DNA of 35,445 nucleotides from NCBI GenBank assembly GCA_903885165.1, contig CAISHO010000112.1:1-35445 (forward strand). The letters are read 5' to 3'. A program made the position numbers and the translations under genes. The notes under the pieces were generated by a model. That model did not search any database, was not told where the DNA came from, and saw nothing but the letters and a program-made list of their open reading frames with translations. Each line of letters begins with the position of its first letter. The stretch's first letter is position 1. This DNA is from an uncultured Nitrosomonadales bacterium (GTDB lineage Bacteria > Pseudomonadota > Gammaproteobacteria > Burkholderiales > Gallionellaceae). Below are positions 6,669-26,927 of the stretch, in pieces.

Positions 6669-7037
6669 GGGGGCGACATGGCTTCGACGTGGGTTGCAAA
6701 GCAGAGTAGGGCATACCGAGGACCCGCAACCTCGTAAATCAGCTGGAAAAAACTAGTCGCAAACGACGAAAACTACGCTTTAGCTGCGTAAGGCAGCTAG
6801 ACCTCACACCATGCTGTCTGTGGAGTGGCTCGAAATCGCAAGATGGAGATGAGTGAGGTACTAACACAGAATCGTGTCGTGCAGGGTTACTTTGTACGAA
6901 GCTAAAACTAAGGTAACTAGTCCCGTACCAGCCCGCCGACTGGCGTGTCCGGGATTAAATCAAACAGTCAGGCTAAGTATGTAGAACTGCCTGTAGAGTG
7001 CTTGCGGACGGGGGTTCAATTCCCCCCGCCTCCACCA
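6669..7037 (+). ncRNA. ssrA: tmRNA (transfer-messenger RNA)
   Basis: tmRNA with SmpB rescues stalled ribosomes and tags the nascent chain for proteolysis. The 5' end GGGGGCGACATGGCTTCGACG and the 3' end, GGGTTCAATTCCCCCCGCC followed by TCCACCA, are diagnostic. The acceptor stem pairs GGGGGCG (6669-6675) with CGCCTCC before ACCA; the CCA is encoded (ends 7037). The T-arm sequence GGGGGTTCAATTCCCCC is present. The tag frame runs 6759-6791: resume codon GCA, then peptide ANDENYALAA and TAA, identical to the E. coli tag, so ClpXP-type recognition is expected. Length of 369 nt is normal for a one-piece tmRNA. Confidence 0.98.
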
Positions 7038-7079
7038 ATAAACAAAAACGACATCCTTGTGATGTCGTTTTTGTTTATT
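7037..7079. terminator. Terminator of ssrA, possibly bidirectional
   Basis: A perfect 19-bp inverted repeat (7037-7055 and 7061-7079) encloses the 5-nt loop CTTGT. Its lower stem is A-rich on the left and T-rich on the right, so it can act as an intrinsic terminator on both strands. It begins at the last base of the tmRNA. Confidence 0.85.
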
Positions 7080-7140
7080 GTGTAGAAACACTACGGTGAA
7101 AAAAAACTGCACCGATAAAATTAAATCGATACCATTAGTA

Positions 7141-8502: not shown

Positions 8503-11094
8503 ATGGAACAATTCGCTAAAGAAACCCTGCCGGTCAGTCTCGAAGAAGAAATGCGCAAGTCCTACTTGGACTACGCGATGAGCGTGATTGTCGGGCGCGC
8601 GCTGCCGGATGTGCGCGACGGTTTGAAGCCTGTACATCGCCGCGTGCTGTTTGCCATGCACGAACTATCAAACGACTGGAATCGCGCTTACAAAAAGTCC
8701 GCGCGTATCGTCGGTGACGTGATCGGTAAGTACCATCCGCACGGCGACACCGCTGTGTATGACACCATCGTTCGTATGGCCCAACCGTTTTCACTGCGTT
8801 ACATGCTGGTGGACGGGCAGGGTAACTTCGGATCAGTGGACGGGGATAACGCGGCGGCGATGCGTTACACCGAAATTCGTATGGCTAAGATCGCCCATGA
8901 GTTACTGGCCGACCTAGACAAGGAAACTGTCGACTTTGGCCCCAACTACGACGGCTCTGAACATGAACCGCTGGTATTCCCGGCACGCTTCCCTAATCTG
9001 CTGGTCAACGGTTCGTCCGGTATCGCGGTGGGGATGGCCACCAATATTCCGCCTCACAACATGACCGAAGTCATCGATGCCTGCCTGGCGTTGCTGAAAA
9101 ATCCGGAAATGGACATCGAGGAGTTGATCGAATACGTACCGGCACCGGACTTCCCCACCGCAGGTTTCATCTATGGTCTGGCAGGCGTTCGTGAAGGGTA
9201 TCGCACCGGTCGCGGTCGCGTCATCATGCGTGCGCGCTGCCACTTCGAAGATATCGGCAAGGGTGAACGTCAGGCGATCATCATCGACGAGCTCCCGTAT
9301 CAGGTAAACAAAGCCAATTTGCTGATGAAGATCGGTGAGATGGTGCGCGAGAAGCGCCTGGAAGGTATCTCCGAAATTCGCGACGAATCGGATAAATCCG
9401 GGATGCGCGCAGTAATTGAGTTAAAACGCGGCGAAAATGCCGACGTGCTGCTCAATAAGTTGTACAAAGATACCCAGATGCAAGACAGTTTCGGCATCAA
9501 CATGGTGGCCATTGTCGATGGTCAGCCACGCTTGCTGAACTTGAAGCAGGTGATGGATGCTTTCCTGCGCCATCGCCGCGAGGTGGTTACCCGCCGCACC
9601 ATATTTGAACTGCGCAAGGCTCGCGAACGCGGTCACGTGCTGGAAGGCTTGGCTGTTGCCTTGTCCAATGTGGACGAAATCATCGCCCTGATCAAGGCAG
9701 CTCCCGCACCTTCAGACGCTAAACGCGAGCTGATGGCGAAGAGCTGGCGCTCGGAGCTGGTCGAAGATATGTTAAGCCGCGTGAGCGACGCGTCCCGTCC
9801 CGATGGGCTGGCGCCGCAATTCGGCCTAATCGTAGCGGGCAATGAACGCTTCTACCATCTGTCCGATGCACAGGCACAGGCGATTCTTGAATTGCGTCTG
9901 CAACGCCTGACCGGCATGGAGCAAGACAAGATCATTGGCGAATACCGCGAGGTGATGGATAAGATTGCCGATCTGCTCGATATTCTGGCCAAACCCGAAC
10001 GTGTCACCGCCATCATCGGCGATGAGTTGGCTGCGGTTAAAACCCAATTTGGCGACAAACGCCGCAGCGAGATTGTCACGCATACGCACGACATGAGCAT
10101 GGAAGATTTGATTCCGCCTGAAGATGTGGTGGTTACCTTGTCGCATGGCGGCTACATGAAGGCGCAGAAGATGGACGAATACCGTGCGCAGAAGCGCGGC
10201 GGGCGCGGCCGTCAGGCAACCAAGAACAAGGAAGACGATTTTATCGACAACCTGTTCGTCGCCAATACCCACAATTTCATTTTGTGCTTCTCCAACAAGG
10301 GACGCGTGTACTGGATGAAGGTATACGACGTGCCGCAGGGCAGTCCTACCGCGCGCGGCAAACCTATCGTCAATCTGTTACCACTGGAAGATGGCGAGAA
10401 GATCAATGCGATCTTGCCGGTCACCGAGTTTGTCGAAGACAAGTTTGTTTTCTTTGCTACCGCTAACGGCACGGTGAAGAAGACTACTCTGACGGATTTC
10501 TCCCGTCCGATGAAACGCGGCATTATCGCGATCAATCTGGATGAAGACGATTATCTTATCGGCGTTGCGATTACCGATGGAAAACACGACGTGATGCTGT
10601 TCTCCAACGCCGGCAAGGCGGTGCGTTTCGATGAAGGTGATGTACGCGAAACAGGTCGTGCTTCTCGCGGTGTTCGCGGTATGAAACTTCAAGAAAATCA
10701 ACAGGTTATATCATTACTGGTGGCGGAGAATGAGCAGCAGAGTGTGTTGACTGCGACCGAAAATGGTTACGGAAAACGCAGCCCGGTCGCCGAATACACC
10801 CGACACGGACGTGGCACGCAGGGCATGATTGCGATTCAGACTTCGGAGCGCAATGGTCGCGTGGTTGCGGCAACGCTGGTTAATCCGGAAGATGAGATCA
10901 TGCTGATCGGCACCAACGGTGTGCTGATCCGTACCCGCGTCAACGAAATCCGCGAAATGGGCCGTACGGCACAGGGCGTGACGTTGATGAATCTGGAAAA
11001 GGGCGAGAAACTGGCGGGTCTTAGCCGTATCGCTGAATCCGGTGAAGAAGAAGGACAGGAAGAGCAGGATTCAGGAACTGAGGATTTAGAGTAA
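8503..11094 (+). CDS. gyrA: DNA gyrase subunit A
   Basis: GyrA is the breakage-reunion subunit of the type II topoisomerase that introduces negative supercoils. The 863 residues start with the family N-terminus. Numbering coincides with E. coli: the quinolone-determining region reads GDTAVYD (81-87) with Thr83 and Asp87, and the catalytic tyrosine is Tyr122 in MRYTE. The GyrA box, QKRGGRG at about 562-568, marks gyrase rather than topoisomerase IV ParC, and the six-bladed C-terminal beta-pinwheel follows. The tail is acidic ([16 protein letters not shown]). The DNA encoding its last residues resembles the GGATTGA heptad repeat that continues after the stop. It is the first gene of the supraoperon. 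No clear ribosome binding site precedes the ATG. Confidence 0.98.
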
Positions 11095-11162
11095 CTGGCA
11101 GGACTGAGGATTGAGTTAAAAGCGGTGCACTATTTTTTCTCAATCCTCAATCCTCAATCCTA
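11067..11162. repeat. Heptad-array palindrome, copy A1 (gyrA-serC junction)
   Basis: Left arm GGACTGAGGATTGAG (11101-11115), a loop containing TAAAAGCGGTGC, and a right arm of three TCAATCC units (11141-11161). GGATTCA, GGAACTGA and GGATTTA at 11067-11088, inside the gyrA 3' end, look like further left-arm units. Copies A2 (20606-20679) and A3 (26835-26927) share this layout. Confidence 0.75.
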
Positions 11163-11197
11163 TGATTTTTTACTAAATACTTTGGAGTGATTGCAGA

Positions 11198-12280
11198 ATG
11201 ACTATCTACAACTTTAGCGCCGGTCCGGCAGTATTGCCGAAAGAAGTGTTGCAACAGGCTCAGGCCGAAATGCTCGACTGGCATGGCAGCGGTATGTCGG
11301 TGATGGAAATGTCGCATCGCGGTAAAGAATTCATGGGCATCGCAGCGGAAGCTGAAGCCGATTTGCGCGAGTTGATGGGAATCCCTGCCAATTACAAAGT
11401 GTTATTTTTGCAAGGCGGTGCATCACAGCAGTTCGCCATGATCCCTATGAATTTGCTGCGCGGCAAAGCGTCGGCGGATTATCTCAATACCGGCGAATGG
11501 TCAAAGAAAGCCATCTCCGAAGCGAAAAAGTACGGTGCAGTGAATGTCGTTGCGACCAGCGCTGACAAAAATTTCTCCTACGTACCCGATTTCGCTGACT
11601 GGAAATGCGACCCGGAAGCCGCTTACTTGCACTTCACACCGAATGAAACCATAGGTGGCGTTGAATTCAGCTGGTTGCCTGAAGCGGGTTCCGTGCCGCT
11701 GGTAGCCGATATGTCTTCCTGCATCCTGTCACGTCCGATAGACGTGTCGAAGTACGGCCTGATCTACGCTGGTGCGCAGAAGAACATCGGTCCTGCGGGC
11801 CTGACTATCGTCATCGTGCGCGAAGATCTGGTGGGTAACGTTGTCGCCGGTACGCCGACCATGCTGGACTACAAGACGCATGCCGATAACGATTCTATGT
11901 ACAACACGCCGCCGACCTATGGCATCTACATCGCAGGTTTGGTGTTCAAGATGTTGAAGCGTAACGGCGGCATTGCGGCGATGGAGCAGACCAATATCGC
12001 CAAGGCCAATTTGCTGTATGCAGCGATCGATGCCAGCGCTGGATTCTACAACTGTCCTGTGGCAACTGACAATCGTTCGCGCATGAACATCCCGTTTACC
12101 CTCAAGGACTCTGCGCTTGATGGCGCTTTCGTCAAACAGGCTGAAGCGCGTGGCCTGTTGCAACTGAAAGGACATCGTTCGGTGGGCGGTATGCGTGCCT
12201 CTATCTATAACGCGATGCCACTGGCCGGGGTTCAGGCGCTGGTCGAATTCATGAACGAATTCGCAAAGCAAAACGGTTGA
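11198..12280 (+). CDS. serC: Phosphoserine aminotransferase
   Basis: SerC is PLP-dependent; it converts 3-phosphohydroxypyruvate to phosphoserine with glutamate, and also acts in pyridoxal-phosphate synthesis. The 360-residue product starts [12 protein letters not shown], has [16 protein letters not shown] near 71-86, and the PLP lysine in [11 protein letters not shown] (Lys195). It ends with the conserved [16 protein letters not shown] block. GGAGTG upstream gives the ribosome binding site. It follows gyrA across the 103-bp repeat-bearing spacer, and precedes the 3-phosphoglycerate dehydrogenase gene, so the first two enzymes of serine synthesis are adjacent. Confidence 0.97.
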
Positions 12281-12323
12281 TTCGGCTAAGTAGCGGGTCA
12301 GCTACGGCCAGATCCGCGCTTAA

Positions 12324-12342
12324 TATTGATTATTAATCAATA
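12324..12342. promoter_or_regulatory. Operator-like dyad upstream of the serA-type gene
   Basis: A near-perfect 19-nt palindrome has arms TATTGATTA and TAATCAATA around one T. It lies 20 bp before the ATG at 12363, directly ahead of the GGAG ribosome binding site. Symmetry and position suggest a repressor or LysR-type site; a short mRNA hairpin is the alternative. Confidence 0.4.
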
Positions 12343-12362
12343 AGATGGAGTAGGGTGTTAAT

Positions 12363-13553
12363 ATGGATAATCACTATCGCATTCTTACCCTGAACAAGAT
12401 TTCCGCTTCAGGCTTAAAACGTTTTCCGGCTAGCGCTTACACGGTCGGGGCTGATGTCACCGACCCGGACGCCATTCTGGTGCGTTCGCAAGTCATGCAC
12501 GACATGGAAATTCCGGCCAGCGTCAAAGCGATAGCCCGAGCTGGGGCAGGCACCAACAATGTGCCGGTTGCTAAGATGAGCGCACGCGGTATCCCGGTGT
12601 TTAATGCAGCGGGGGCGAATGCCAACGCGGTAAATGAACTGGTGGTGGCAGGCATGTTGCTGGCAGCACGCAATATTATCCCTGCGCTGCAATTTGTCGC
12701 GGGGCTGCAAGGCGATGATGCCGTTATGCATAAACTGGTCGAGGACGGTAAGAAGCATTATGCAGGCTTTGAGTTGAAAGGCCGCACCTTAGGGATCATC
12801 GGTTTGGGTGCAATTGGTCGTATGGTTGCCGATACCGCCTTGAAACTGGGTATGCACGTGTATGGCTTCGATCCTGAAATCACCGTGGAAGGTGCATGGA
12901 GTTTGTCGTCTCAGGTGAAAAAGGCACAGAGCGTCGAGGAGTTGCTCAAACACAGCGATTTCGTCACACTGCACGTGCCTTTGCTGGAAGCGACTCGCGG
13001 CCTGATCAATGTGCAGCGCATCGCATCGATGAAGTCAGGCAGCGTGTTGCTGAACTTCTCGCGCGATGCGATCGTGGAAAACGACGCGGTACTAGCGGGC
13101 CTAGCGGCCAAGCGTCTGCGTGCTTATGTGTGCGATTTCCCGGCGCAGAAATTACAGGGCCAGACGAATGTGTTGACGCTGCCTCATTTGGGTGCATCCA
13201 CCGAAGAGGCGGAAGACAACTGTGCGTCTATGGTGGTAGATCAGGTGCGTGAGTATCTGGAACACGGCAATATCACCAATACGGTGAATTTCCCGACCCT
13301 GGTGATGCCGCGTGAATCGACTCACCGCCTAGCCGTGGCCAATGCCAATGTGCCGAATATGCTGGGACAGATTTCGACCACGCTGGCAGCGGCTGGTATC
13401 AACATACACACCATGATGAACAAATCGCGCGGTGAGATGGCCTATACGCTGGTGGATACGGATAGCTGTGTGCCTGATGCCTTGATTGCACAAATTGCTG
13501 CGATTGAAGGTGTGTTGATGGTGCGCAGCTTACCATTTTCTTCAGTCTTATGA
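12363..13553 (+). CDS. serA: D-3-phosphoglycerate dehydrogenase (short, ACT-containing)
   Basis: It oxidises 3-phosphoglycerate to 3-phosphohydroxypyruvate, the first step of serine synthesis and the substrate of neighbouring SerC. Visible parts: substrate-domain RAGAGTNNVPV (59-69), NAAGANANAVNELV (81-94), the NAD-binding GLGAIG (147-152), the catalytic Arg in LLNFSRDAIV, and the catalytic His in LPHLGAS. A C-terminal ACT domain (about 320-396) probably binds serine for feedback. At 396 residues it resembles the E. coli-size form. Loop residues differ from the usual NxARGG pattern (NFSRDA). GGAGTAGGG upstream is the ribosome binding site, and an unusual dyad precedes it. Confidence 0.92.
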   Translation: MDNHYRILTLNKISASGLKRFPASAYTVGADVTDPDAILVRSQVMHDMEIPASVKAIARAGAGTNNVPVAKMSARGIPVFNAAGANANAVNELVVAGMLLAARNIIPALQFVAGLQGDDAVMHKLVEDGKKHYAGFELKGRTLGIIGLGAIGRMVADTALKLGMHVYGFDPEITVEGAWSLSSQVKKAQSVEELLKHSDFVTLHVPLLEATRGLINVQRIASMKSGSVLLNFSRDAIVENDAVLAGLAAKRLRAYVCDFPAQKLQGQTNVLTLPHLGASTEEAEDNCASMVVDQVREYLEHGNITNTVNFPTLVMPRESTHRLAVANANVPNMLGQISTTLAAAGINIHTMMNKSRGEMAYTLVDTDSCVPDALIAQIAAIEGVLMVRSLPFSSVL

Positions 13554-13617
13554 TTTATTTTACATTAACAAAATATTGTAAATATCTGAGTATTAAGAAA
13601 TTTACTAAAATTATACT

Positions 13618-14682
13618 ATGAGTGATAAGCTAAAACAGTGCCGAGAGCAAATTGACAGTTTAGATGATGAAATGCTCAGACTGGTCAATCAGCGTGCTGC
13701 GCTCGCACAGCGGATTGGTCACCTTAAGGAAGGCGGCGTGGTGTTGAGGCCTGAGCGGGAGGCGCAAGTGTTGCGCCGACTGCAAGCAAACAATGCCGGT
13801 CCGTTGAGTAACACTGCTATCGCGGCTTTGTTTACTGAAGTTATGTCGCAATGCCGCGCTCTGGAAGCGTCGCTTTCAGTAGCCTATCTCGGGCCGGAAG
13901 GGACGTTCACCGAAGCGGCCGCACTCAAACGTTTCGGCAGCGCGATACTAGGCGTATCTTGCACCACCATTGATGATGTGTTTCGTGAAGTAGAAAGCGG
14001 CGATACGCAATACGGCGTTGTACCTGTGGAAAACTCCACCGAAGGCGCGATCGGTCGCACGCTGGATTTGCTGCTGCAGAGCACCTTGCAAGTTTGCGGC
14101 GAGGTGATGCTGCCTATCCATCAATGTCTGCTGGCTAAGGACTGCGATCTGAAGTCGATCAAGTCAGTCTATTCGCATCCTCAGTCGTTGGGACAATGCC
14201 AGGGTTGGCTGAATATAAATCTGCCTCATGTGGCGCGGATTGCCGTGTCCAGCAACGCGGAAGCGGCGCGACTGGCCTCTGAGCATCCGGGTAGTGCGGC
14301 GATTGCAGGTGCTCAGGCGGCAGGTCATTTCGGCCTGAACGTATGCGTCGAAAATATTGAAGACGATGCCAGAAATACTACACGCTTTCTGGTGTTGGGT
14401 AAGCAGGATGTAGCGCCTTCCGGCAACGACAAGACTTCAATGGTGTTGTCAGCCGCTAATCGCCCCGGTGCCGTCCACGATCTGCTGGCTTCACTGGCAA
14501 AGTTCGAGGTGAGCATGACCAAGTTTGAGTCGCGTCCATCCCGTTCCGGATTGTGGGAATATGTGTTTTACGTGGATATCGAAGGCCATCAGGCCGACGT
14601 GAAGGTCGCGGCCGCATTAGCAGAGCTCAAGCTCGCCGCCGCTTTCCTGAAAATTTTAGGATCATATCCTGTTGCAGTTTAG
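13618..14682 (+). CDS. pheA: Bifunctional chorismate mutase / prephenate dehydratase (P-protein)
   Basis: It converts chorismate to prephenate and then phenylpyruvate, the committed branch to phenylalanine. An AroQ-type chorismate mutase occupies residues 1-90 (LKQCREQIDSLDDEMLRLVNQRAALAQRIG). The dehydratase domain starts AYLGPEGTFTEAA (about 89-101), contains VPVENSTEGAIG, and has the active-site TRFLVLG. A regulatory ACT domain ends the protein, with ESRPSR (about 303-308) for phenylalanine binding. Length of 354 residues is normal for beta/gammaproteobacteria. The 64-bp upstream spacer is very AT-rich and may hold a promoter. No strong ribosome binding site is visible. Confidence 0.97.
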   Translation: MSDKLKQCREQIDSLDDEMLRLVNQRAALAQRIGHLKEGGVVLRPEREAQVLRRLQANNAGPLSNTAIAALFTEVMSQCRALEASLSVAYLGPEGTFTEAAALKRFGSAILGVSCTTIDDVFREVESGDTQYGVVPVENSTEGAIGRTLDLLLQSTLQVCGEVMLPIHQCLLAKDCDLKSIKSVYSHPQSLGQCQGWLNINLPHVARIAVSSNAEAARLASEHPGSAAIAGAQAAGHFGLNVCVENIEDDARNTTRFLVLGKQDVAPSGNDKTSMVLSAANRPGAVHDLLASLAKFEVSMTKFESRPSRSGLWEYVFYVDIEGHQADVKVAAALAELKLAAAFLKILGSYPVAV

Positions 14683-14707
14683 AGAATTATATTAAGGGTT
14701 TTAAAGC

Positions 14708-15481
14708 ATGACGATTAAACAATTGAGTTGGGACATCGATTTTCTGAAGAACAATCCGGCTTTTCAGAGCGATAACTATGGCATTCCCCCGGATGCACGC
14801 CACATTAACTACCCAATCAGAATGGTAAGGTATTGGTTTATATATCATTTTCTTCGTGAAGAGTCCGCTCGTCGCGGTGCCTTGAATGTCTGTGAAATCG
14901 GCGTCGATGTCGGTCAGATGCTGGGCTTTTTGAAGGCAGCCGTAGCACTGGGCGGTGAAAAAGTAGAACTGGCCAGTTGGGATGCAGTCGATGCCATCAT
15001 CCGTGAAGACATCTTGACGCGCGTCGGCTACAACCAGTTCTACCAGGTTGATCTGGAAAGCCCTGAATTCGCCCTGAGCGATGCCAAACAATACGACGTG
15101 ATGATACTAACTCATGTGCTGGAACATCTGTTCAAACCAGAAGAATTGATGAACAAGATTGTTCACCACCTAAAACCGGGTGGCATGCTGATCGGCGGTT
15201 TTCCTTCCACCCCTGAATTTGCAGCGCAGTCGCGCGAAGACAAGATACGTCCGACTGCCCGAAAATATGGCCATGTCAGCGTATTCTCCACCGACCGAGT
15301 ACGCCGTATGGCGAAGGAGTGCGGACTGGAAGTTGAATTCCTGTCTGGCGCGTTCTTCATGCGTAAAAAGGGCTTCTTCCTGGAGAATACCAAGTGGTGG
15401 TTGCGCTTCAATTTGTGGTTCGGTGCGACGTTTCCGAACTGGCCTGGTGAGGTGTACTGGATACTGCGCAAGCCACTTTAA
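14708..15481 (+). CDS. Class I SAM-dependent methyltransferase of unknown substrate
   Basis: The 257-residue protein has motif I NVCEIGVDVGQM (about 60-71), a later LTHVLEHLFKPEEL segment and the post-motif PGGMLIGGFPS, together a Rossmann methyltransferase of the Methyltransf_11/23 kind. The C-terminus is Trp-rich and basic (KWWLRFNLWFGATFPNWPG), possibly membrane-associated or binding a lipid-linked substrate. It lies in the supraoperon between pheA and hisC, where the classic gene order has nothing, and shares their strand with short spacers; co-transcription is likely. Its substrate cannot be told from sequence: a sugar, lipid or quinone-like acceptor are all possible. Confidence 0.8.
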   Translation: MTIKQLSWDIDFLKNNPAFQSDNYGIPPDARHINYPIRMVRYWFIYHFLREESARRGALNVCEIGVDVGQMLGFLKAAVALGGEKVELASWDAVDAIIREDILTRVGYNQFYQVDLESPEFALSDAKQYDVMILTHVLEHLFKPEELMNKIVHHLKPGGMLIGGFPSTPEFAAQSREDKIRPTARKYGHVSVFSTDRVRRMAKECGLEVEFLSGAFFMRKKGFFLENTKWWLRFNLWFGATFPNWPGEVYWILRKPL

Positions 15482-15503
15482 TAGTATTTTTGTTTACTAT
15501 TAA
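15478..15503. other. AT-rich hairpin at the methyltransferase stop codon
   Basis: Perfect 9-bp arms TTAATAGTA and TACTATTAA enclose TTTTTGTT. It overlaps the stop codon and no T-tract follows, so RNA processing or stabilisation is more likely than termination. Confidence 0.4.
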
Positions 15504-15585
15504 CAATTCACGGTTTAAAGTTCGGGTTCGCGGTTTACAGATGGCTGTTACCGTCAGTTTTTATTGATCGTTATCGAATGCTTAA

Positions 15586-16689
15586 ATGAATTATTCCGAA
15601 CTGGCACCAAGTTATATTCGCGCAATCGCGCCTTACCAGCCCGGCAAACCGATTTCAGAACTGGAACGGGAGTTAGGGTTAACCGACATCGTCAAACTGG
15701 CTTCGAATGAAAATCCTTTGGGCGCAAGCCCGAAGGCGCTGGCTGCTGCGCATGCCGCACTTGAAGAAATCAGCCTGTATCCGGATGGCAATGGTTTTGC
15801 ACTGAAAACGGCACTGGTTGCACGCTATGGTGTAGCGCATAACCAGATCGTGCTGGGCAATGGCTCGAACGATTTGCTGGAATTAGCAGCTCATGCTTTT
15901 CTGACTGTCGGCGACAAGGCAGTTTATTCCGACCATGCTTTTGCCGTGTATCCGCTGGCGACGCAGGCGATAGGGGCAACCGGAATCAGCGTGAAGGCGA
16001 TCAATTTCGGCCACGATCTGGACGCGATTCGTCTTGTCGCAGTGGCAGAACAGGTCAAGCTGATTTTTATCGCCAATCCTAATAATCCGACCGGCACGTT
16101 TTTATCCGGCGATGCGCTGCTTGTCTTTTTGCGCGCCTTGCCGGCCAGTATCGTGGTGGTGCTGGATGAAGCCTATAACGAATATCTGCCGGAAGCTTGC
16201 CGCTACGACAGTGTCAGCTGGTTAAGCGAATTTCCGAATCTATTGATTTCGAGGACTTTTTCTAAGGCCTATGGACTTGCATCATTGCGCGTCGGATATG
16301 CCTTGGGTAGTGCGCAGGTCATCGACATGCTCAACCGCGTGCGTCATCCGTTCAACGTCAATAGTCCGGCACAAGCGGCAGCGATCGCGGCACTGGATGA
16401 TTCAGACTTTGTCCGGCGCACTTTTGAATTGAACTTGCGCGGCATGGAACAAATCACGCAAGGCTTGTGCGCGATGGGGCTCGATTACATTCCTTCCTTC
16501 GGTAATTTCATCAGCTTTCACGTTGTCAACGCGGCACGGATTTACCGACGCTTACTTGAGTTGGGCGTAATCGTCCGGCCTATCGGTAATTATGCGATGC
16601 CGGATTACTTACGCGTGAGCATCGGATTGGAAGAACAGAATTTTAAATTTTTATCTGCGTTAAAACAGGTACTTGGAGAAAAAGCATGA
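15586..16689 (+). CDS. hisC: Histidinol-phosphate aminotransferase
   Basis: This PLP enzyme transaminates imidazole acetol phosphate in histidine synthesis. Members in this supraoperon position often also take aromatic keto acids, which would complete phenylalanine and tyrosine synthesis here; that is inference from context. Motifs: KLASNENPLGASP near 37-49, NPNNPTGT near 165, VVLDEAYNEY, and SRTFSKAYGLASLRVGY with the PLP lysine at about 227. The 367 residues match the family. Its stop overlaps the next start as ATGA (16686-16689), implying translational coupling with the DAHP synthase gene. Confidence 0.95.
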   Translation: MNYSELAPSYIRAIAPYQPGKPISELERELGLTDIVKLASNENPLGASPKALAAAHAALEEISLYPDGNGFALKTALVARYGVAHNQIVLGNGSNDLLELAAHAFLTVGDKAVYSDHAFAVYPLATQAIGATGISVKAINFGHDLDAIRLVAVAEQVKLIFIANPNNPTGTFLSGDALLVFLRALPASIVVVLDEAYNEYLPEACRYDSVSWLSEFPNLLISRTFSKAYGLASLRVGYALGSAQVIDMLNRVRHPFNVNSPAQAAAIAALDDSDFVRRTFELNLRGMEQITQGLCAMGLDYIPSFGNFISFHVVNAARIYRRLLELGVIVRPIGNYAMPDYLRVSIGLEEQNFKFLSALKQVLGEKA

Positions 16690-17702: not shown

Positions 17703-17706
17703 ATTC

Positions 17707-18579: not shown

Positions 18580-18633
18580 AATGGAAACAGACGTAAGACA
18601 TAAGTAAAATTCACCCGAAAAGTTGTACCAATT

Positions 18634-18661
18634 TTGAGTATGGGCAGTGGGGATATACAAT
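18634..18661 (+). promoter_or_regulatory. Probable promoter of the 81-residue ORF
   Basis: TTGAGT (18634-18639) and TACAAT (18656-18661) are separated by 16 nt, 28 bp before the ATG at 18690. Confidence 0.4.
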
Positions 18662-18689
18662 CACGGTAACAGTCCACAAGGTGTAAATC

Positions 18690-18935
18690 ATGAAGACATC
18701 CGTTTTGAATCAAGTCCCTAAAGGCGAAGGCCTGACACGCGCTGTCTTTGATCTGGAAATGCATGACTTGATGCGGCACGACAAGGCACAAATTCAGCGT
18801 GGACTTGATGCCTATAACGATCCGATCGCGCCTAGAACGTCGCACGCTGACTTCATGGTCGAACCGAAAACAGAACTTCTGAGCCGGATAGATGTGCGAC
18901 ATCGTTTTTCAAAAACGTCATTGCGAGAAGCGTAG
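18690..18935 (+). CDS. Small hypothetical protein, 3' end replaced by a repeat
   Basis: I do not recognise this 81-residue product. It is polar, has no membrane segment, and begins MKTSVLNQVPKGEGLTRAV. AAGGTG upstream is a fair ribosome binding site, and a plausible promoter precedes it, so expression is possible. Its last codons (TSLREA) and its stop lie within an interspersed repeat starting about 18916, so the native C-terminus has probably been lost. It sits between tyrA and the DUF4160/DUF2442 remnants. It may be a decayed fragment of a larger gene or a chance ORF. Confidence 0.45.
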   Translation: MKTSVLNQVPKGEGLTRAVFDLEMHDLMRHDKAQIQRGLDAYNDPIAPRTSHADFMVEPKTELLSRIDVRHRFSKTSLREA

Positions 18936-18951
18936 CGACGCGGCAATCCAG
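18916..18951. repeat. CGTCATTGCGAG-type interspersed repeat (copy C)
   Basis: The element reads CGTCATTGCGAGAAGC, then GTAGCGACGCGGCAATCCAG, with imperfect inverted ends ATTGC/GCAAT. I recall near-identical elements dispersed in many unrelated bacterial genomes. It supplies the stop of the 81-residue ORF and abuts the DUF4160 remnant. Confidence 0.75.
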
Positions 18952-18966
18952 TATTTTTTATAATTG

Positions 18967-19062
18967 ATGCTTATTCAATTCTTGACGGGGCGCTACATCA
19001 CTGACTGGAATCTGGCTGTAAACGGTAAAAAACCTTTTCCAATTAAGGGGCTTGATCAATGA
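18967..19062 (+). pseudogene. C-terminal remnant of a DUF4160 protein
   Basis: The frame MLIQFLTGRYITDWNLAV continuing NGKKPFPIKGLDQ and TGA matches the end of DUF4160 proteins as I remember them (pattern LxxxWxLAVNGxxxFxI). The N-terminal two-thirds are missing; a stop lies 3 nt upstream and repeat C ends 16 nt upstream. Its TGA overlaps the ATG of the next frame (ATGA, 19059-19062). DUF4160-DUF2442 is a frequent two-gene pair, often discussed as toxin-antitoxin-like, which supports the identification. Too short to be functional. Confidence 0.6.
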
Positions 19063-19265
19063 GAATGACTGAAATTCAGCCTCAGGAGAACTGGGTGTTG
19101 TCTGTTGTTGCCGATGACGGTCGAGTCGGCAGCTTTGATGTCAGCCCGTACCTTGCATACGAAGCGTTTGAGGAACTCAGGAATCACGGCGAGTTTAGTA
19201 AAATTTCTAGAAAATGTTGGAATGTTAGACCTGACCCCGTGACCGTGTTAGACCTGACCCCGTGA
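19059..19265 (+). pseudogene. DUF2442 protein, 3' end replaced by a repeat element
   Basis: Residues 1-50 (MTEIQPQENWVLSVVADDGRV, then GSFDVSPYL and FEELRNHGEFSKIS) have the DUF2442 pattern: a beta-strand start followed by DGxxxxFDVxPYL and FxxLxxxxxF. The family then continues with a WPGGxDLxPDxLY-type end. Here it is replaced by VRPDPVTVLDLTP, which is a translation of repeat D (from 19225). The start overlaps the DUF4160 tail by 4 nt, so the pair was once translationally coupled. Both partners are broken. Confidence 0.65.
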
Positions 19266-19335
19266 CCGCCGTGACCGTCCGTGACCCCGTGACCGTCAGG
19301 TCGATAACAACAAGCTGTTGATGGGGTCAGGTCTT
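19225..19335. repeat. GACCTGACCCC palindromic element with tandem units (copy D)
   Basis: Two adjacent 23-nt units, each GTTAGACCTGACCCC followed by GTGACCG and one variable base (19225-19247, 19248-19270), are followed by degenerate CCGTGACC units. The inverted arm GGGGTCAGGTCT lies at 19324-19335. Sequences with GACCTGACCCC ends commonly flank IS200-like/REP-associated transposases, but no transposase gene is present here. Confidence 0.75.
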
Positions 19336-19485
19336 GCAAGCACGCATTTCTTAGAATCTTTATGTTTTCACCCCGCCCTGTAGATTCCTGTATTCAAGAT
19401 TAACTTAAATTAATTCTTAGCTATTTTATGTAATATATTGTTTTATAAATATATATTGCAAACAATGAACCGTTGAAAGCGCACC
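19336..19485 (+). promoter_or_regulatory. AT-rich leader of aroA-cmk, probable promoter region
   Basis: The 100 bp before the ATG are strongly AT-rich (TAATATATTG, ATAAATATATATTG). Several -10-like hexamers occur and no single pair is convincing. A separate promoter would be needed because the decayed insertion separates aroA from tyrA. Confidence 0.3.
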
Positions 19486-21477
19486 ATGACTCACTCTGCA
19501 TATATTGATCTTCCTCCCTTGCTATCTGCCGGCGGCACAGTTCGTCTGCCGGGCTCCAAGAGCATTTCCAATCGCGTGTTGTTGCTCGCGGCGTTAGCCG
19601 AAGGGACGACCGAAGTGCGCGACCTGCTGCGCTCCGATGATACCGACCGTATGCTGGAGGCGTTGCAAACGCTGGGCGTGGCGGTTGAATCGCTGGGCGA
19701 CAATGCTTATCGCGTCACCGGTTGCAGTGGCGACTTTCCTGTTAAGGAAGCCAAACTGTTTTTAGGCAATGCCGGTACGGCGTTCCGTCCACTGACTGCT
19801 GCGCTGGCCTTGGCGGGCGGCAATTACGAGTTATCCGGTGTTGCGCGCATGCACGAGCGGCCGATCGGTGATCTGGTGAACGCCTTGCGTCAGTTGGGTG
19901 CTGATATCGAATATCTGGGCAACGAGGGCTTTCCACCGCTGTCGATACGTCCTGCGATACTGGCAGCAGATGTCGCTCAAGTTCGCGGTGATGTGTCCAG
20001 CCAGTTTTTGACCGGTCTTTTGATGGCGCTCCCGCTGATGAAACAGACGGTCAGTATCGAGGTGGTGGGCGAGTTAATCTCCAAACCTTATATCGAAATC
20101 ACGCTGGCGATGATGGAGCGCTTTGGGGTCAAAGTTGAACGCCAGGGATGGCAACGCTTTGTGGTGTTTGGCGGACAACGCTATCAGAGTCCTGAAGTGA
20201 TCTATGTGGAAGGCGATGCCTCTTCCGCCTCCTATTTTCTGGCAGCCGGAGCCATCGGCGGTGGGCCGGTGCGCGTTGAAGGAGTGTGGAAGACCAGTAT
20301 ACAGGGCGATGTGAAATTCGCAGCCGAGTTAGCGAAGATGGGTGCGGTGATTACCATGGGTGATAACTGGATCGAATCTTCCGCTCCAACCAGTGGCAAA
20401 TTGAACGCCATCGAACTGGACTGCAACCATATACCCGATGCCGCGATGACGCTGGCGACCGCAGCCTTGTTTGCGGAAGGCACAACTGTATTGCGCAATA
20501 TCGCCAGCTGGCGCGTCAAGGAAACCGACCGTATCTCGGCGATGGCAACCGAATTGCGCAAGGTCGGCGCAACAGTGGAAGAGGGCGCGGATTACATCAA
20601 AATTACAGGATTGAGGATTGAGGATAAAGGATTTAAAAGCGTGTGTGCTCACTCCTCGCTCCTCGCTCCTCGCTCCTCTATCGACACTTACGACGATCAC
20701 CGCATGGCGATGTGTTTTTCTCTGGCGGCATTCGGCGCTGAGGGCATCCGCATCAACGATCCCAACTGCGTCGCCAAGACCTTTCCGGATTACTTCGCAG
20801 CCTTCGCCGCTGTCACCAAAGCCGTTCCGGTGATCGCGATCGACGGGCCTTCCGCTTCGGGCAAGGGCACTGTCGCTCAGCGCGTCGCCACAGAACTTGG
20901 CTTTCATTATCTGGACAGCGGTGCGTTGTATCGTCTGCTGGCAACAGCAGCGCAGCGGGATGGCATCGCGCTGGAGGATGAAGCTGCACTAGCCAGTCTC
21001 GCAGGTCGCATAGATATCCGCTTCGAGGGTGAGAAGATCTGGCTGGACGGCGAGTTGGTGGGGGATGAGTTGCGCTCGGAGAAGAGCGGAGCTGCCGCCT
21101 CAAAAATTGCCGCCTTGCACATGGTTCGTGCCGCCTTGCTGGACAAGCAAAGAGCCTTCCGTCGTGCGCCGGGACTGGTCACCGACGGGCGCGATATGGC
21201 CTCAGTCGTGTTCCCCGATGCGGCGCTGAAGATCTTTTTGACCGCCTCAGCCGAGGCGCGTGCAGAAAGGCGCTATAAGCAGTTGAAAGAAAAAGGAATG
21301 GATGCTAATATCGCGCCGCTTTTGCAGGAGATAAAAGCGCGCGACGAGCGAGATACTCAGCGCAGTGCAGCTCCCCTGCAACAGACACCCGGTGCAAGTC
21401 TGCTGGATACCACTGATCTTACTATCGAACAGGCGGTTAATTCGGTGCTGACAGGCTACCGGCGTAGGGCCCCGTAG
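19486..21477 (+). CDS. aroA: AroA-Cmk fusion: EPSP synthase / cytidylate kinase
   Basis: One 663-residue frame joins two enzymes usually made separately. Residues 1 to about 443 are 3-phosphoshikimate 1-carboxyvinyltransferase (shikimate pathway): [37 protein letters not shown] and [14 protein letters not shown]. From about 447 a complete cytidylate kinase follows (CMP/dCMP phosphorylation): P-loop GPSASGKGT at 454-462, [11 protein letters not shown], and [14 protein letters not shown]. Similar fusions are annotated in other betaproteobacteria, so this is not an assembly artefact. Just before DTYDDHRM, residues about 374-397 ([11 protein letters not shown]... to SSLLAPRSS) are encoded by heptad repeat A2 and make the region about 15 residues longer than E. 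coli AroA. Adjacent to rpsA, as cmk usually is. Confidence 0.95.
20606..20679. repeat. Heptad-array palindrome, copy A2 (inside aroA)
   Basis: Left arm: GGATTGA, GGATTGA, GGATAAA, GGATTTA (20607-20634). The loop contains AAAAGCGTGTG. Right arm: CTCAC and then TCCTCGC three times, ending TCCTCT (20649-20679). It lies wholly in coding sequence with the frame kept open. Confidence 0.75.
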
Positions 21478-21482
21478 GACAC

Positions 21483-21500
21483 CCCGTCTTTCGGGTTTTT
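21483..21500 (+). terminator. Weak hairpin plus T-tract between aroA-cmk and rpsA
   Basis: CCCG, loop TCTTT, CGGG, then five T. The 4-bp stem is short, so at most partial termination or attenuation before rpsA. Confidence 0.3.
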
Positions 21501-21541
21501 AACTAACCTCTGTGTAAACAGAAAAATCTTAGGTGTATTCG

Positions 21542-23254
21542 ATGAACGCAACTGCAGACGCTGTATTTAATCCCGATAGTTTTGCCGCGATGTTTGAAGA
21601 AAGTTTGACCCGCAAAGAAATGCGCGCTGGCGAACTGATTACCGCACAAGTTGTACGTATTGACCACAATGTGGTTGTAGTAAATGCTGGTCTTAAATCC
21701 GAAAGCTGGATTCCAGTTGAAGAATTCCTGAACGACAAGGGCGAAATGGAAGTTGCTGCTGGCGACTTCGTAACCGTCGCTATTGAATCGCTCGAAAACG
21801 GCTATGGTGAAACCAAGCTGTCTCGTGAAAAAGCTAAGCGTCTGGCTGCATGGCACGATCTTGAATTGGCTATGGAAGAAGGCAAGATCGTTGAAGGTTT
21901 TGTCAGCGGTAAGGTTAAGGGCGGTCTGACTGCCATGGTTAACGGTATTCGCGCATTCTTGCCGGGTTCTTTGGTGGACATTCGTCCAGTCAAGGACACC
22001 ACACCGTACGAAAACAAGACCATGGAATTCAAGGTTATCAAGCTGGATCGTCGCCGTAACAACGTGGTTGTTTCTCGCCGCGCAGTTCTGGAAGAAACGA
22101 TGGGCGCTGACCGTGAATCAGTCATGGAAAATCTGAAAGAAGGCGCAATCGTTAAGGGCGTGGTCAAGAACATCACGGACTACGGCGCATTCGTTGATCT
22201 GGGTGGTATCGATGGTCTGTTGCACATCACCGACCTGGCATGGCGTCGTGTTAAGCATCCTTCAGAAGTCTTGACGGTTGGCGATGAAATCGAAGCGAAG
22301 ATCCTGAAATTCGATCAAGAAAAGAATCGCGTTTCACTGGGTATCAAGCAAATGGGCGATGATCCTTGGAATGGTCTGGCACGTCGTTACCCACAAGGTA
22401 CACGCATGTTCGGTAAGGTTACTAACCTGACTGACTACGGTTCATTCGTTGAAATCGAACAAGGCATCGAAGGTCTGGTTCACGTTTCTGAAATGGATTG
22501 GACTAACAAGAACGTACACCCATCTAAGGTTGTTCAGGTAGGTGACGAAGTTGAAGTCATGATCCTGGAAATCGACGAACAACGCCGTCGTATCTCTTTG
22601 GGTATGAAGCAGTGCCACTCCAATCCTTGGGATGATTTCGCGATCAACCACAAGAAGGGTGACAAAGTTAAGGGTCAAATCAAGTCTATCACTGACTTCG
22701 GCGTGTTTATCGGTCTGGATGGCGACATCGACGGTCTGGTACATCTGTCTGATCTGTCATGGACTCAGCCTGGCGAAGAAATGGTACGCAACTTCAAGAA
22801 GGGTGATGAAGTTGAGGCTGTTGTGTTGGCGATCGATGTTGAGCGCGAGCGCATTTCTCTGGGCATCAAGCAAATGGAAGGTGACCCGTTCGGCGGCTTT
22901 GCAGCTACCAATGAAAAGGGCGCTATCGTGACCGGCGTGGTTAAGTCTGTTGATGCCAAGGGCGCTGTGATCACACTGCCAGGCGATGCAGAAGCTTACC
23001 TGAAGTCGTCTGAGTTCTCAGTTGATCGCGTAGAAGATATTCGCACTCACCTGAAAGAAGGCGATTCCGTTAAGGCGATGATCATCAACGTAGATCGCAA
23101 AAATCGCGGTATCAATCTGTCAGTTAAGGCGTTGAGCAAGGCTGAAGATTCTGCTGCTATGCAAAAATTGGCGGCTGACAGCAGCACTAGTGCGGGTACA
23201 ACCAATCTGGGCGCGTTGTTGAAGGCTAAACTTAGCGGTAAGTCTGAAGCTTAA
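21542..23254 (+). CDS. rpsA: 30S ribosomal protein S1
   Basis: S1 unwinds and docks mRNA on the small subunit. The 570-residue product carries six S1 (OB-fold) repeats, at about 20-86, 104-170, 191-259, 276-346, 363-433 and 450-519. The central ones repeat the pattern GxVxxITDFGxFVxLxGxxxGLxHxSDLxW, followed by ISLGIKQ. The ATG at 21542 follows AGGTG by 6 nt; the GTG at 21533 lies within that binding site. Codon use and length are typical. It sits between cmk and ihfB, the near-universal proteobacterial order. Confidence 0.98.
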
Positions 23255-23269
23255 GCTCAGGAGAAATGC

Positions 23270-23557
23270 ATGACTCGTTCTGATTTGATTGCCCGGTTGG
23301 CCGAATTGCACCCGCAATTGCTGGCTAAGGATGCAGAGCTGGCCGTAAAGGTGATTCTCGACTCATTGTCATCCACATTGTCGAGTGGCGGGCGGGTGGA
23401 GATTCGCGGATTCGGCAGCTTTGGCCTCAATTACCGTCCACCACGTCAAGGGCGCAATCCCAAGACTGGCGACAAAGTAAAAGTGCCAGCCAAATACGTG
23501 CCACACTTTAAGGCAGGTAAGGATCTTAGAGAGCGGGTAGGTAACGAAGCAGCCTGA
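23270..23557 (+). CDS. ihfB: Integration host factor subunit beta
   Basis: IHF is a DNA-bending nucleoid protein heterodimer of IhfA and IhfB. The 95-residue product reads [14 protein letters not shown] at the start and has the DNA-minor-groove arm [24 protein letters not shown]; the start TRSDLI and the position after rpsA distinguish it from HU and IhfA. CAGGAG upstream is the ribosome binding site, 15 bp after the rpsA stop. A strong terminator follows. Confidence 0.97.
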
Positions 23558-23578
23558 TTGCTAAGGTAGTATAAAAAG

Positions 23579-23615
23579 TGGCGGTGATATTGAAAGATAT
23601 CGCCGCCATTTTTTT
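23579..23615 (+). terminator. Intrinsic terminator after ihfB
   Basis: TGGCGGTGATAT and ATATCGCCGCCA pair with one G-T wobble around the loop TGAAAG, followed by seven T. It probably ends the rpsA-ihfB transcript. Confidence 0.88.
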
Positions 23616-23656
23616 ATCATGCTATTCTCGATAAAGGATTTTATTGGTGCATCAAA

Positions 23657-23923
23657 ATGCGTTATATTAGCTGGCTTTTACAAATGATCGCCTTCATCGT
23701 CTTGCTGGGCTTTGCCCTCAAAAACGGTCAACCGGTTACATTGCATTATTTTTTTGGATACGAGTGGCAGTCGACCTTAGTGATCGCACTGCTGGTCTTT
23801 TTTACCATAGGCGCGGGCCTAGGTATTTTAGCGACACTGGGCATCTGGTTCCGCCAGCGCCGCGAAATCGCACGCTTAAAGCGTGAGATCAGCGAAATTA
23901 AAAAACTGAATAGCAACGCTTAA
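23657..23923 (+). CDS. lapA: LapA-domain inner-membrane protein
   Basis: LapA (DUF1049) is a small inner-membrane partner of LapB in controlling lipopolysaccharide assembly. The 88 residues contain two transmembrane helices (about 4-22 and 40-66), with ALKNGQPVTLHYFFG between them, and a charged C-terminal coiled coil (RRQRREIARLKREISEI-like). Length and layout match the family. It is followed by lapB as in most proteobacteria, about 100 bp downstream. Confidence 0.92.
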   Translation: MRYISWLLQMIAFIVLLGFALKNGQPVTLHYFFGYEWQSTLVIALLVFFTIGAGLGILATLGIWFRQRREIARLKREISEIKKLNSNA

Positions 23924-24024
23924 ATCATCAGCTTTAGCTTACATTCCTGTTTTACATAGTGACATCATCTTAAGAATGATGACTAATAATATGATTATAT
24001 TGAATTTTTTGGTGGCCGCAATTG

Positions 24025-25200
24025 ATGGAATTTGAACCGTGGATGCTGCTTATTTTCCCTTTGTTCTTCGGCATGGGGTGGTGGGCTGCACGTTTGGATA
24101 TCAAGGATTTGCTTTCTGAATCGACAGCTGTGCCGGAGTCGTATTTCCAGGGTTTGAATTTCCTGCTCAACGAACAGCAGGATAAGGCCATCGAGGCTTT
24201 TATCGAAGTGGTCAAGATCGACCCGCAGACGGTGGAATTGCACTTCGCACTAGGCAGCTTGTTTAGACGTCGCGGCGAAGTTGATCGCGCGTTGCGTATG
24301 CATCATAATCTGGTGGACCGAGCCGATTTGGATGATAGTCAGCGTCAGCAGGCGATCTTTGAACTGGCTCAGGATTATCTCAAGGCCGGAATATTAGACA
24401 GGGCAGAGCGGTTATTCACCGAACTGGAAAAATCTAGCTATGCCAAACCGGCTTTGGAATTTTTGCTCGAATTGTTTCAGAAGGAACGCGACTGGCTCAA
24501 GGCGATTGCAGTCAGTCAGCAATTGGCTACCGTCTCCGGTCAGTCGTACGCAAAACAGGCCGCTTTTTTCTATTGCGAACTGGCGAACGAGGAAATCACC
24601 GCCGGCAATCTGACCGGTGCACGTGCGCATTTGCTGCAGGCGCTTGCTGATTGCCCTGCAAGCGTACGGGCGAGCATTATGCTGGGCGACATGGAACAGG
24701 AAGAGGGCAAGACAGAACAGGCGATTGCCATCTGGCAGGGCGTGGAGACTCAGGATGCGCAGTATCTGCCGCTGGTCGCCGAGCGTTTGTTGAACGCCTA
24801 TCGCGAGATGGATCGCGAGGCGGAGGGTATCGTCTTATTGCGTAACTATCTGATTAATTATCATTCTATCGACACGCTCAACGTGGTGTTCGACGGCATC
24901 TTGAAATATGAAGGTTCTGCATCGGCTTATCAGTTGGTGCGAGATGAGTTGGTGCGCAATCCGACCCTGCTCGGTCTCGACAAATTGCTCGAAGCCCGCT
25001 TGCTGGAAGTGTCGCTGGATCGACGCGCCGACATCGAACTGGTCAAAGATCTGGTGCATAAGCGCACAAGAAATCTCGCGATGTACCACTGTGGTCATTG
25101 CGGTTTTAAAGCAAGAAAATTTTACTGGCATTGTCCGGCCTGTCAGGCATGGGATAGTTATGCGCCTAAACGCGATGAGGAAAGTGGTAAACCTTTATGA
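24025..25200 (+). CDS. lapB: LapB, lipopolysaccharide assembly protein (TPR plus rubredoxin-like domain)
   Basis: LapB (YciM) is an inner-membrane-anchored TPR protein that regulates LPS synthesis through FtsH-dependent LpxC turnover. An N-terminal membrane anchor (about 5-20) precedes the TPR array starting [19 protein letters not shown]. The C-terminus carries a rubredoxin-type metal site CGHCGF and HCPACQAW (cysteines about 356-376), diagnostic for LapB. At 391 residues the length is normal. ATG 24025 is taken instead of the adjoining TTG 24022. Its TGA overlaps the pyrF ATG (25197-25200). Confidence 0.95.
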
Positions 25201-25898
25201 GTGATCCCAAGATTATTGTAGCCCTGGACTATCCGGGAGCGGTGCCGGCTCTGGCGCTTGCACACCGTTTGTCGCCCGAGTTGTGCCGCCTGAAGGTAGG
25301 CAAGGAGTTGTTCACCGCAACCGGTCCCAGTCTGCTCGAACAACTGATGAAACGCGGTTTTGAAATTTTTCTGGATTTGAAATTTCACGACATTCCCAAT
25401 ACCACCGCGCAAGCCTGTAAGGCCGCTGCTAGTCTCGGTGTATGGATGGTGAATGTGCATGCGCTGGGCGGTCGCAAGATGCTGGAAGCGGCGCAATTAG
25501 CGGTCTCCAACTGTGCAAAGCCACCTAAGTTGATCGCGGTGACATTGCTGACCAGCATGAATCAGGAAGATATCTCTGATCTGGGCATCAATGCGACTCC
25601 CGAGCAGATGGTGCTGCGACTGGCTGCCATGGCGAAGGAATCGGGTCTGGATGGCGTGGTTTGTTCGGCGATGGAAACCGAAATTTTACGCAAACAGCTG
25701 GGCAACAAGTTCTGTCTGGTCACCCCGGGAATCCGTCCACCGGCGGCCAGCCTGGACGATCAGTCCCGCGTGATGACGCCGGAAGCGGCTTTACGTGCCG
25801 GTTCCAGCTATCTGGTGATCGGACGTCCCATTACCAAAGCAGCCGATCCGTTGCAGGCGCTGATCGATATCAACATGGGTATCCGGGGAATCGCATAA
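25197..25898 (+). CDS. pyrF: Orotidine 5'-phosphate decarboxylase
   Basis: It decarboxylates OMP to UMP, the last step of pyrimidine synthesis. The 233-residue barrel has the catalytic [10 protein letters not shown] motif near 60-69, VNVHALGG near 84, and the phosphate-binding TPGIRP and [12 protein letters not shown]. It is coupled by ATGA overlap to lapB and by TAATG overlap to the heptose kinase gene. This lapB-pyrF link is conserved in many proteobacteria. Confidence 0.97.
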
Positions 25899-26842
25899 TG
25901 GTTTTACCAGAATTTAATCACGCCAAAGTGCTGGTGGTCGGCGATGTGATGCTGGACCGCTACTGGTTTGGCGATGTCAATCGTATCTCACCCGAAGCGC
26001 CGGTTCCCGTGCTCAAAGTCAACCGTGTGGATGAGCGTCCGGGTGGTGCGGCTAACGTGGCGCGCAATATCGCGGCGCTAGGCGCACAGGCGACGCTGTT
26101 GTCGGTGGTCGGCGATGACGAGGCGGGCGCCTGCCTGGAAAAGTTGCTCGGCGAACACAGCAACCTGACTGCCTTGTTACACCGCGATGCCAGCATTTCC
26201 ACCATCATCAAGTTGCGCGCCATCGCACGACATCAGCAGTTGCTGCGCATCGATTTCGAGACGCCGCCCAGCCACGAGGTATTGCACGCCGCGCTGGAAG
26301 ATTATCGCGCGCAGTTACCACTGGCCGATATCGTGATTCTGTCCGATTACGGCAAGGGCGGACTGGCGCACATTGCACAGATGATACAGATGGCCAGAGA
26401 CGCCGGAAAACCGGTGCTGGTCGATCCCAAGGGGGATGATTACGCACGTTATGCGGGAGCTACGCTCTTGACCCCTAATCGCAGTGAATTTTGCCAGGTG
26501 GCAGGTAGCTGGCATGACGAGAGCGAGTTAAACGCTAAAGCACAGGCACTGCGTACCCAATTGCAACTGGAAGCATTGCTGGTCACGCGCAGCGAAGACG
26601 GCATGAGCCTGTTTATGGCCGATGAAGTATTGCATGTGCCGACCCACACCCGTGAAGTGTTCGATGTCAGCGGGGCAGGGGATACCGTGATCGCGACTCT
26701 GGCGGTGATGCTGGCAAGTGGCGCGGCGCTGCCTGATGCGATGCGCATCGCCAATCGCGCAGCCGGTATCGTGGTTGGTAAACTGGGCACGGCGGTAGTG
26801 AACCGGGAAGAGATCGTTAAGGATATGGAAAACCAGGATTGA
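25898..26842 (+). CDS. rfaE1: D-glycero-beta-D-manno-heptose-7-phosphate kinase (HldE kinase domain only)
   Basis: It phosphorylates heptose 7-phosphate to the 1,7-bisphosphate in ADP-heptose synthesis for the LPS core. The 314-residue pfkB-family protein begins VLVVGDVMLDRYWFGDVNRISPEAPVPV, contains ERPGGAANVARNIAALG, and has the catalytic DVSGAGDTV near 256-264. The adenylyltransferase half of E. coli HldE is missing, the usual split arrangement in betaproteobacteria; the partner is not in this window. ATG 25898 overlaps the pyrF stop by one base; an in-frame upstream extension exists but runs through pyrF. The last codons ENQD and the stop fall in repeat A3. Confidence 0.93.
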   Translation: MVLPEFNHAKVLVVGDVMLDRYWFGDVNRISPEAPVPVLKVNRVDERPGGAANVARNIAALGAQATLLSVVGDDEAGACLEKLLGEHSNLTALLHRDASISTIIKLRAIARHQQLLRIDFETPPSHEVLHAALEDYRAQLPLADIVILSDYGKGGLAHIAQMIQMARDAGKPVLVDPKGDDYARYAGATLLTPNRSEFCQVAGSWHDESELNAKAQALRTQLQLEALLVTRSEDGMSLFMADEVLHVPTHTREVFDVSGAGDTVIATLAVMLASGAALPDAMRIANRAAGIVVGKLGTAVVNREEIVKDMENQD

Positions 26843-26927
26843 GGATTGGGGAGTAAGGATTGAGGATTGAGTAAAATCGAACTGCCCTGTTTCTAACTCA
26901 ATCCTCATTCTGGAATCCTCGATCCTA
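26835..26927. repeat. Heptad-array palindrome, copy A3 (heptose kinase-hldD junction)
   Basis: Left arm: GGATTGA, GGATTGG, GGAGTAA, GGATTGA, GGATTGA (26836-26870). The loop contains TAAAATCGAACTGCC. The right arm is degenerate: CTCAATCC, TCATTCT, GGAATCC, TCGATCC (26897-26926). The first unit supplies the TGA stop of the kinase gene. Confidence 0.75.

Follow-up and report, generated by a model that had tools for sequence, protein, structure and literature searches.

Three hairpins in a 35,445-nt stretch of contig CAISHO010000112.1 (assembly GCA_903885165.1), from an uncultured bacterium of the Gallionellaceae, belong to a set of paired heptad arrays found throughout the genome. The same positions are occupied in related species, even within enzyme genes, while the repeated word varies by species, and, as far as the unit word goes, both arms of an element change together. 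In this stretch, hereafter the window, each element has two arrays of 7-nt units, the first G-rich and the second C-rich, separated by a 15-25 nt loop whose start is A-rich. Direct reading of arms and loops upheld the opposed three-element design that the first-pass annotation had proposed, together with the loop starts it had described, which are TTAAAAGCG, TTAAAAGCG and TAAAATCG in elements 1, 2 and 3. The features are given below, delimited on the sequence unless another basis is named.

11066..11089, + strand: degenerate purine-rich heptad run AGGATTCAGGAACTGAGGATTTAG at the 3' end of gyrA (sequence and reading frame).
11100..11115, + strand: left (G-rich) arm of element 1, AGGACTGAGGATTGAG, in the gyrA-serC gap.
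11116..11138, no strand: loop of element 1, TTAAAAGCGGTGCAC...TTTTTT (related loop in congeners).
11139..11161, - strand: right (C-rich) arm of element 1, CTCAATCCTCAATCCTCAATCCT, 3.3 perfect units.
19486..21477, + strand: AroA (EPSP synthase)-Cmk fused open frame, hosting element 2 in frame (open frame; AroA part by alignment).
20607..20632, + strand: left arm of element 2, in frame in aroA.
20633..20647, no strand: loop of element 2.
20648..20678, - strand: right arm of element 2, TCCTCGC units, in frame in aroA.
26835..26871, + strand: left arm of element 3, with the hldE stop codon within it.
26872..26896, no strand: loop of element 3.
26897..26926, - strand: right arm of element 3, upstream of hldD (26942).

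The hldE stop (TGA, 26840-26842) falls within the first units of the left arm of element 3, and in AroA the alignment to solved EPSP synthases revealed extra residues directly before the conserved DDHRMAM motif. The fused aroA and cmk frame spans 663 amino acids, and similar or longer frames extend over aroA in many congeners.

The 7-nt period claimed for the elements was confirmed, since lag 7 and its multiple were the only lags to exceed a common threshold in the window (four tandem arrays at lag 7, one at lag 14, none at the other lags from 4 to 15). Copy number was beyond that expected from base composition: GGATTGAGGATTGA occurred 44 times in the 2.44 Mb genome (151 contigs) against 0 for the reversed control, and the wider pattern GAGGANNGAGGANNGAGGA (three tandem copies of GAGGANN) 72 times against 20. 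As RNA, elements 1, 2 and 3 fold with z-scores of -3.6, -3.2 and -5.7 against dinucleotide shuffles. The 44 matches form 19 clusters on 13 contigs; the clusters on contigs C18, C61 and C125 lie at contig ends with shared sequence, so that one site may be counted twice. The annotation's view of three copies in one supraoperon gives way to this genome-wide distribution, and confinement of the element set to the supraoperon is ruled out by the count. The genome also has arrays of, at least, GGAGTGA, GGAATGA, GGACTGA and GGAGCGA units, and 282 kb of its stretches (chosen by contig number, with C6 and C18 excluded and the window added) contained ten lag-7 arrays, including the unlike words GGTTCAA and AGCTTGT. 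At L256:9321-9415, in the same genome, a two-arm element has AGTAGCA on the left and AGCTTGT on the right, around a GCACC/GGTGC hairpin.

Tandem arrays in this set favour the 7-nt period over other ones, the defining trait of bacterial heptameric simple sequence repeats; heptamer repeats are reported to be over-represented in bacteria (PMC4692102). A scan of named genome contigs returned at least 118 stretches with the word, and the 80 titles among the matches listed span many phyla; by arithmetic, about 0.1 occurrences of the 21-mer would be expected by chance in 257 Gb of even composition. The 118 contigs among the matches listed, which were selected by the presence of that word, held 256 lag-7 arrays in 839 kb (143 once the GGATTGA word was masked), against at most 24 arrays at each lag from 3 to 21 other than multiples of 7. 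The 103 arrays with words unlike GGATTGA comprised 82 distinct words. At two contig starts with a common upstream sequence (tuf-like, by eye), L032:124-178 and L043:124-148, heptad arrays follow the stop codon, their left end being identical while loop and right side differ.

Related genomes yielded the further copies sought. GGATTGAGGATTGA was found in 19 of 36 congeners. Counting the own genome, 20 of the 61 genomes searched have it, every one of them from the 37 that represent this genus, with no match in the 24 genomes from other families. Prevalence outside the genus is low, the 21-mer being present in 2 of 398 genomes drawn from the phylum, own genome included (1 of the 397 others). Array counts in congeners refer to stretches of each genome: three lag-7 arrays in G080, two each in G029 and G010, and one in G004 (G-numbers are genome labels). 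No lag-7 arrays were detected in 40-100 kb stretches each of G027, G062, G021, G009, G017 and G064, and in those of G021 lag 7 was outnumbered by other lags.

Ortholog searches for four sites provided 30 loci each, out of 54, 59, 55 and 56 matching genomes. Among 30 loci per site, lag-7 arrays were called in 21 at aroA (own genome included), 15 for the hldE-hldD gap and 13 for the gyrA-serC gap, where one locus was truncated to 31 nt; each of the other lags from 4 to 13 gave arrays in at most 6 of 30 loci. Four uncalled hld sites (G069, G083, G033, G014) contain degenerate heptads by eye, and other uncalled sites have none or another palindrome. The words differ at aroA, where GGATTGA with GGAGCGA (G000), GGATTCR with GGATGCA (G002, G033), RGGTTCA (G003), GGATTTG (G062), GTGAAAC (G001), GAAGGGR (G020, G021) and AGCTTGT (G028) were read, and the hld gap of G015, G021, G062, G075, G076 and G082 has GGNNAGT. 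A second in-frame site, murD, bears arrays at one position in 4 of the 17 loci parsed (30 were fetched, 13 not parsed), with three words: TCAATCC (G000, G010), CCCACTC (G003) and GACTTAC (G011). Both arms were called at 8 of the 21 aroA sites and the right arm alone at 13; these single arms, like the murD arrays, are C-rich on the sense strand, which would follow, judging from the words, if in-frame stops come with G-rich arrays. The gyrA-serC loop is common to G000, G080, G003, G015 and G071, and less closely to G062, whose right arm has another word; a loop shared despite differing arms argues for inheritance in place. The annotation's proposal that unit number and sequence vary while the layout persists, made for a family of three, thus describes a dispersed family in the own genome and its congeners. 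Two features of these loci were recorded separately: a nested palindrome, GGTGCGCAGCACC, within the right heptad arm of the hld gap in G021, G062, G075, G076, G082 and G083 (by eye), and aroA matches split, with larger inserts, in G010, G013 and G015.

An arm is more like its partner in the same element than like the corresponding arm in other species. Across 20 two-arm sites, left and right words within an element were alike at 5.65 of 7 positions, against 4.42 for left-left and 4.75 for right-right comparisons of different species at the same site (p 0.0002 by within-site permutation; 5.6 and p 0.0005 in a separate run, as ties in the unit consensus are broken arbitrarily and the means shift slightly); the strand of one array, the right arm in gyrA-serC of G022, was set by hand. 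Duplex energy averaged -30.1 kcal/mol for arms paired with their own partner and -20.3 kcal/mol for exchanged arms, with own pairing better at 19 of 20 sites. Words were also more alike across three sites of one genome than expected (4.91 vs 4.31; p 0.0005, the lowest value that 2000 permutations allow). Units are fairly uniform within an arm though the sequence differs by species, and the slippage or unit conversion suggested by the annotation is matched by changes in unit steps: G062 differs from its close relatives G082 and G021 by an extra AGGAAGT unit and a further G in the left arm, and its right arm has one unit swapped for a copy of the neighbouring unit. Between G013 and G069, the innermost units show a matched T/C and A/G difference.

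We propose that the elements are palindromic minisatellites, shaped by 7-nt slippage and inter-arm homogenisation at inherited permissive sites, a reading to which we give about an even chance of being correct. Two convergent 7-nt arrays around a short core would be kept at gene ends, in operon gaps and in enzyme loops, where replication slippage in 7-nt steps would gain, lose and homogenise units within an arm. The same word could be kept on both arms by inter-arm copying, through template switching at the hairpin, or by replacement from elsewhere in the genome, and a dedicated transposase would be unnecessary; in coding regions, survival would be filtered by frame and stop codons. The G-first polarity described below may arise if slippage occurs more readily with the G-rich strand as the nascent strand at the hairpin, which is the weakest part of the proposal. 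Template switching has been reported to homogenise the arms of inverted repeats and to maintain hairpins (PMC8604942, PMC8794818).

The pairs are convergent and inverted, as in Xanthomonas, and strongly polarised. Among those less than 100 nt apart on the 118 contigs, 50 ran from G-rich to C-rich and one the reverse way, other pairs being both G-rich (16), both C-rich (6) or undecided (6), and all seven pairs detected in the own-genome stretches were G-first. A palindrome reads alike on either strand, so the polarity does not depend on the direction of transcription. Such a bias would suit a telomere-like addition, in which the two 3' ends at a break or gap each receive G-rich heptads and are then joined, leaving the arms convergent: the bias extends to unlike arms (10 to 0 among the matches listed), arms have a word in common and not a unit order, and DRT10 reverse transcriptases are described as making tandem-repeat DNA from varied templates, with 9-nt repeats in the described case (preprint PMC12632851). 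The DRT10 product is, however, protein-primed, and the available part of that preprint gives no chromosomal addition. RVT_1 matches occurred in 24 of 61 genomes of the genus and in none of array-rich G013 (99% complete) and array-bearing G001, G004, G028 and G029, although incomplete assemblies could hide one, and no candidate enzyme was found. We therefore consider this origin very improbable, and equally doubtful its broader form, a widespread bacterial activity adding G-rich heptads with a genome-specific word at both 3' ends of breaks or gaps, convergent pairs being the healed scars.

Several observations weigh against the proposal of palindromic minisatellites. Neither the 50-to-1 polarity nor the recurrence of one word at many loci of a genome follows from slippage alone, and copying in trans would fit both. 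Arms were unlike (4/7 or fewer positions alike) in 10 of the 50 G-first pairs on the 118 contigs. At hld of G075, own-partner pairing (-27.0) was worse than pairing with others (-33.9), and at aroA of G003 and gyrA-serC of G022 the arms were no more alike than exchanged ones; between G013 and G069, a second arm difference, GAGTG/GAGCG, has no partner. The three word-sharing sites lie within 16 kb in the own genome, so that the likeness across sites does not test the genome as a whole. The order of variant units was not mirrored between arms (80 pairs, 40 informative, 16 above and 15 below shuffles, p 0.32), and mirrored copying between arms, unit by unit, was rejected as not seen; inter-arm template switching would predict mirrored variants, though slippage may erase them.

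A mobile hairpin, such as a miniature inverted-repeat transposable element or a repetitive extragenic palindrome (REP), moved in trans by a transposase and with families replacing each other at favoured sites, would account for one word on 13 own-genome contigs and for words common to the sites of one genome. It would also suit G002, where aroA and hld carry the same unlike pair (GGATTC left, GGATGC right), and the non-heptad palindromes in the hld gap of other congeners, some of them GTAG-footed by eye (G009, G034, G073). The annotation had suggested a mobile hairpin and advised looking for a transposase like the REP-associated tyrosine transposases (RAYT), but neither the transposase nor the insertion was substantiated. 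Y1_Tnp (PF01797) is present in 52 of 61 genomes of the genus, among them the own genome with three matches (one below cut-off), and did not follow the arrays where the two were compared: arrays occur at aroA and hld of G002 (96% complete), which has no PF01797 match, while G009 and G017 have three and two matches and no arrays at the places inspected (60 kb each, hld of G009, aroA of G017, plus a GGATTGAGGATTGA search, which found none). This comparison is coarse, as arrays were not counted in every genome. The window arms start with AGGA and finish with TCCT or TCCTC, the GTAG tetranucleotide not being at their foot. Comparison of the aroA and murD sites by eye revealed no clean empty site or target duplication, the array replacing loop sequence, and the gyrA-serC loop points to inheritance in place. 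RAYT and reverse transcriptase were both rejected as required factors: judged by PF01797, a RAYT does not seem to be required, nor does a reverse transcriptase, judged by RVT_1. On balance, a transposase-moved hairpin appears possible but unlikely.

The elements could alternatively be RNA hairpins under selection in operon gaps, where they would aid mRNA stability or processing or insulate genes, their sequence drifting freely. Of the hld gaps, 22 of 30 (13 of 15 heptad, 9 of 15 non-heptad) reach z < -2, i.e. a strong hairpin of some family; the advantage of own-partner pairing at 19 of 20 sites agrees with this. The same design, however, occurs in the aroA frame, and single arms in murD, where no such role is expected. 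Moreover, z < -2 is missed at aroA by 7 of the 21 sites with heptads and at gyrA-serC by 5 of the 13 gaps with heptads, only 4 of the 16 gyrA-serC gaps lacking heptads reach it, and unlike arms exist. Selection on RNA structure may apply in the hld gap and hardly in aroA or murD; we judge this explanation improbable.

The kind of element is already known, convergent heptamer pairs at conserved positions having been reported in Xanthomonas (PMC4692102). The GGGAATC and GGGGA(C/T)T heptamers of Xanthomonas and Nostoc form convergent inverted pairs (70 in Xcc, 75 in Xac), 83% of the Xanthomonas ones having the same gene context in both species, near gene ends (Rehm 2015, PMC4692102). The present set resembles them in its 7-nt units, genome-wide spread, convergent pairs, conserved positions and proximity to gene ends. 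Xanthomonas and Nostoc have runs of at least three Gs and one word type per lineage, whereas here the words have GG, several occur per orthologous site, the arms change together and in-frame sites exist in conserved enzymes. A G-quadruplex of three-G runs (GGGNATC kind) was discarded, as own-genome words such as GGATTGA and GGAGTGA have GG. The TAACTGA heptamers of Beggiatoaceae (MacGregor 2015, PMC4679880) are likewise 7-nt direct repeats, patchy across distant phyla and stop-free in one orientation, hence possible in open reading frames; in the available portions of that account they are mostly single arrays before start codons, with one inverted case and word turnover not described. REP or GTAG palindromes with RAYT (PMC3733652) are similarly dispersed at gene ends, some intragenic, and in some congeners the hld gap is, by eye, occupied by GTAG-bearing palindromes; the window elements differ by the missing GTAG, a stem of 7-nt tandem units and no PF01797 link found.

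Rickettsia palindromic elements are in-frame palindromes inside genes with a conserved element sequence. Both they and the elements described here include in-frame palindromes, whereas here the sequence turns over.

A literature search of titles and abstract openings found no account of in-place word turnover with both arms in step, nor of in-frame AroA or MurD heptad sites. New relative to the literature searched are the turnover of words at fixed sites with arms in step, the in-frame AroA and MurD arrays, and one polarity over many phyla and words. One proposal for why heptamers dominate among long bacterial repeats is a polymerase footprint (Mrazek 2007, via PMC4679880 and PMC4692102). Four sites in many species, with several words and often two arms, constitute natural replicates, and arms in step together with polarity set constraints for any mechanism that can be tested in sequence data. 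The AroA and MurD arrays further point to conserved enzymes able to accept fast-changing loops.

Other repeats were noted in the window. An inverted repeat, GACCTGACCCC / GGGGTCAGGTC, containing 23-nt and 18-nt tandem copies, lies at 19199-19362 and resembles another dispersed palindrome. A 20-bp perfect inverted repeat with a 5-nt loop is located between called open frames (7036-7080), and a short 11/20-nt tandem array lies close to the window end (35392-35436). The AACCCTCTCCCCC repeat at 5912-5936 is similar by eye to CCCTCTCCC-like palindromes at hld of G016 and aroA of G065.

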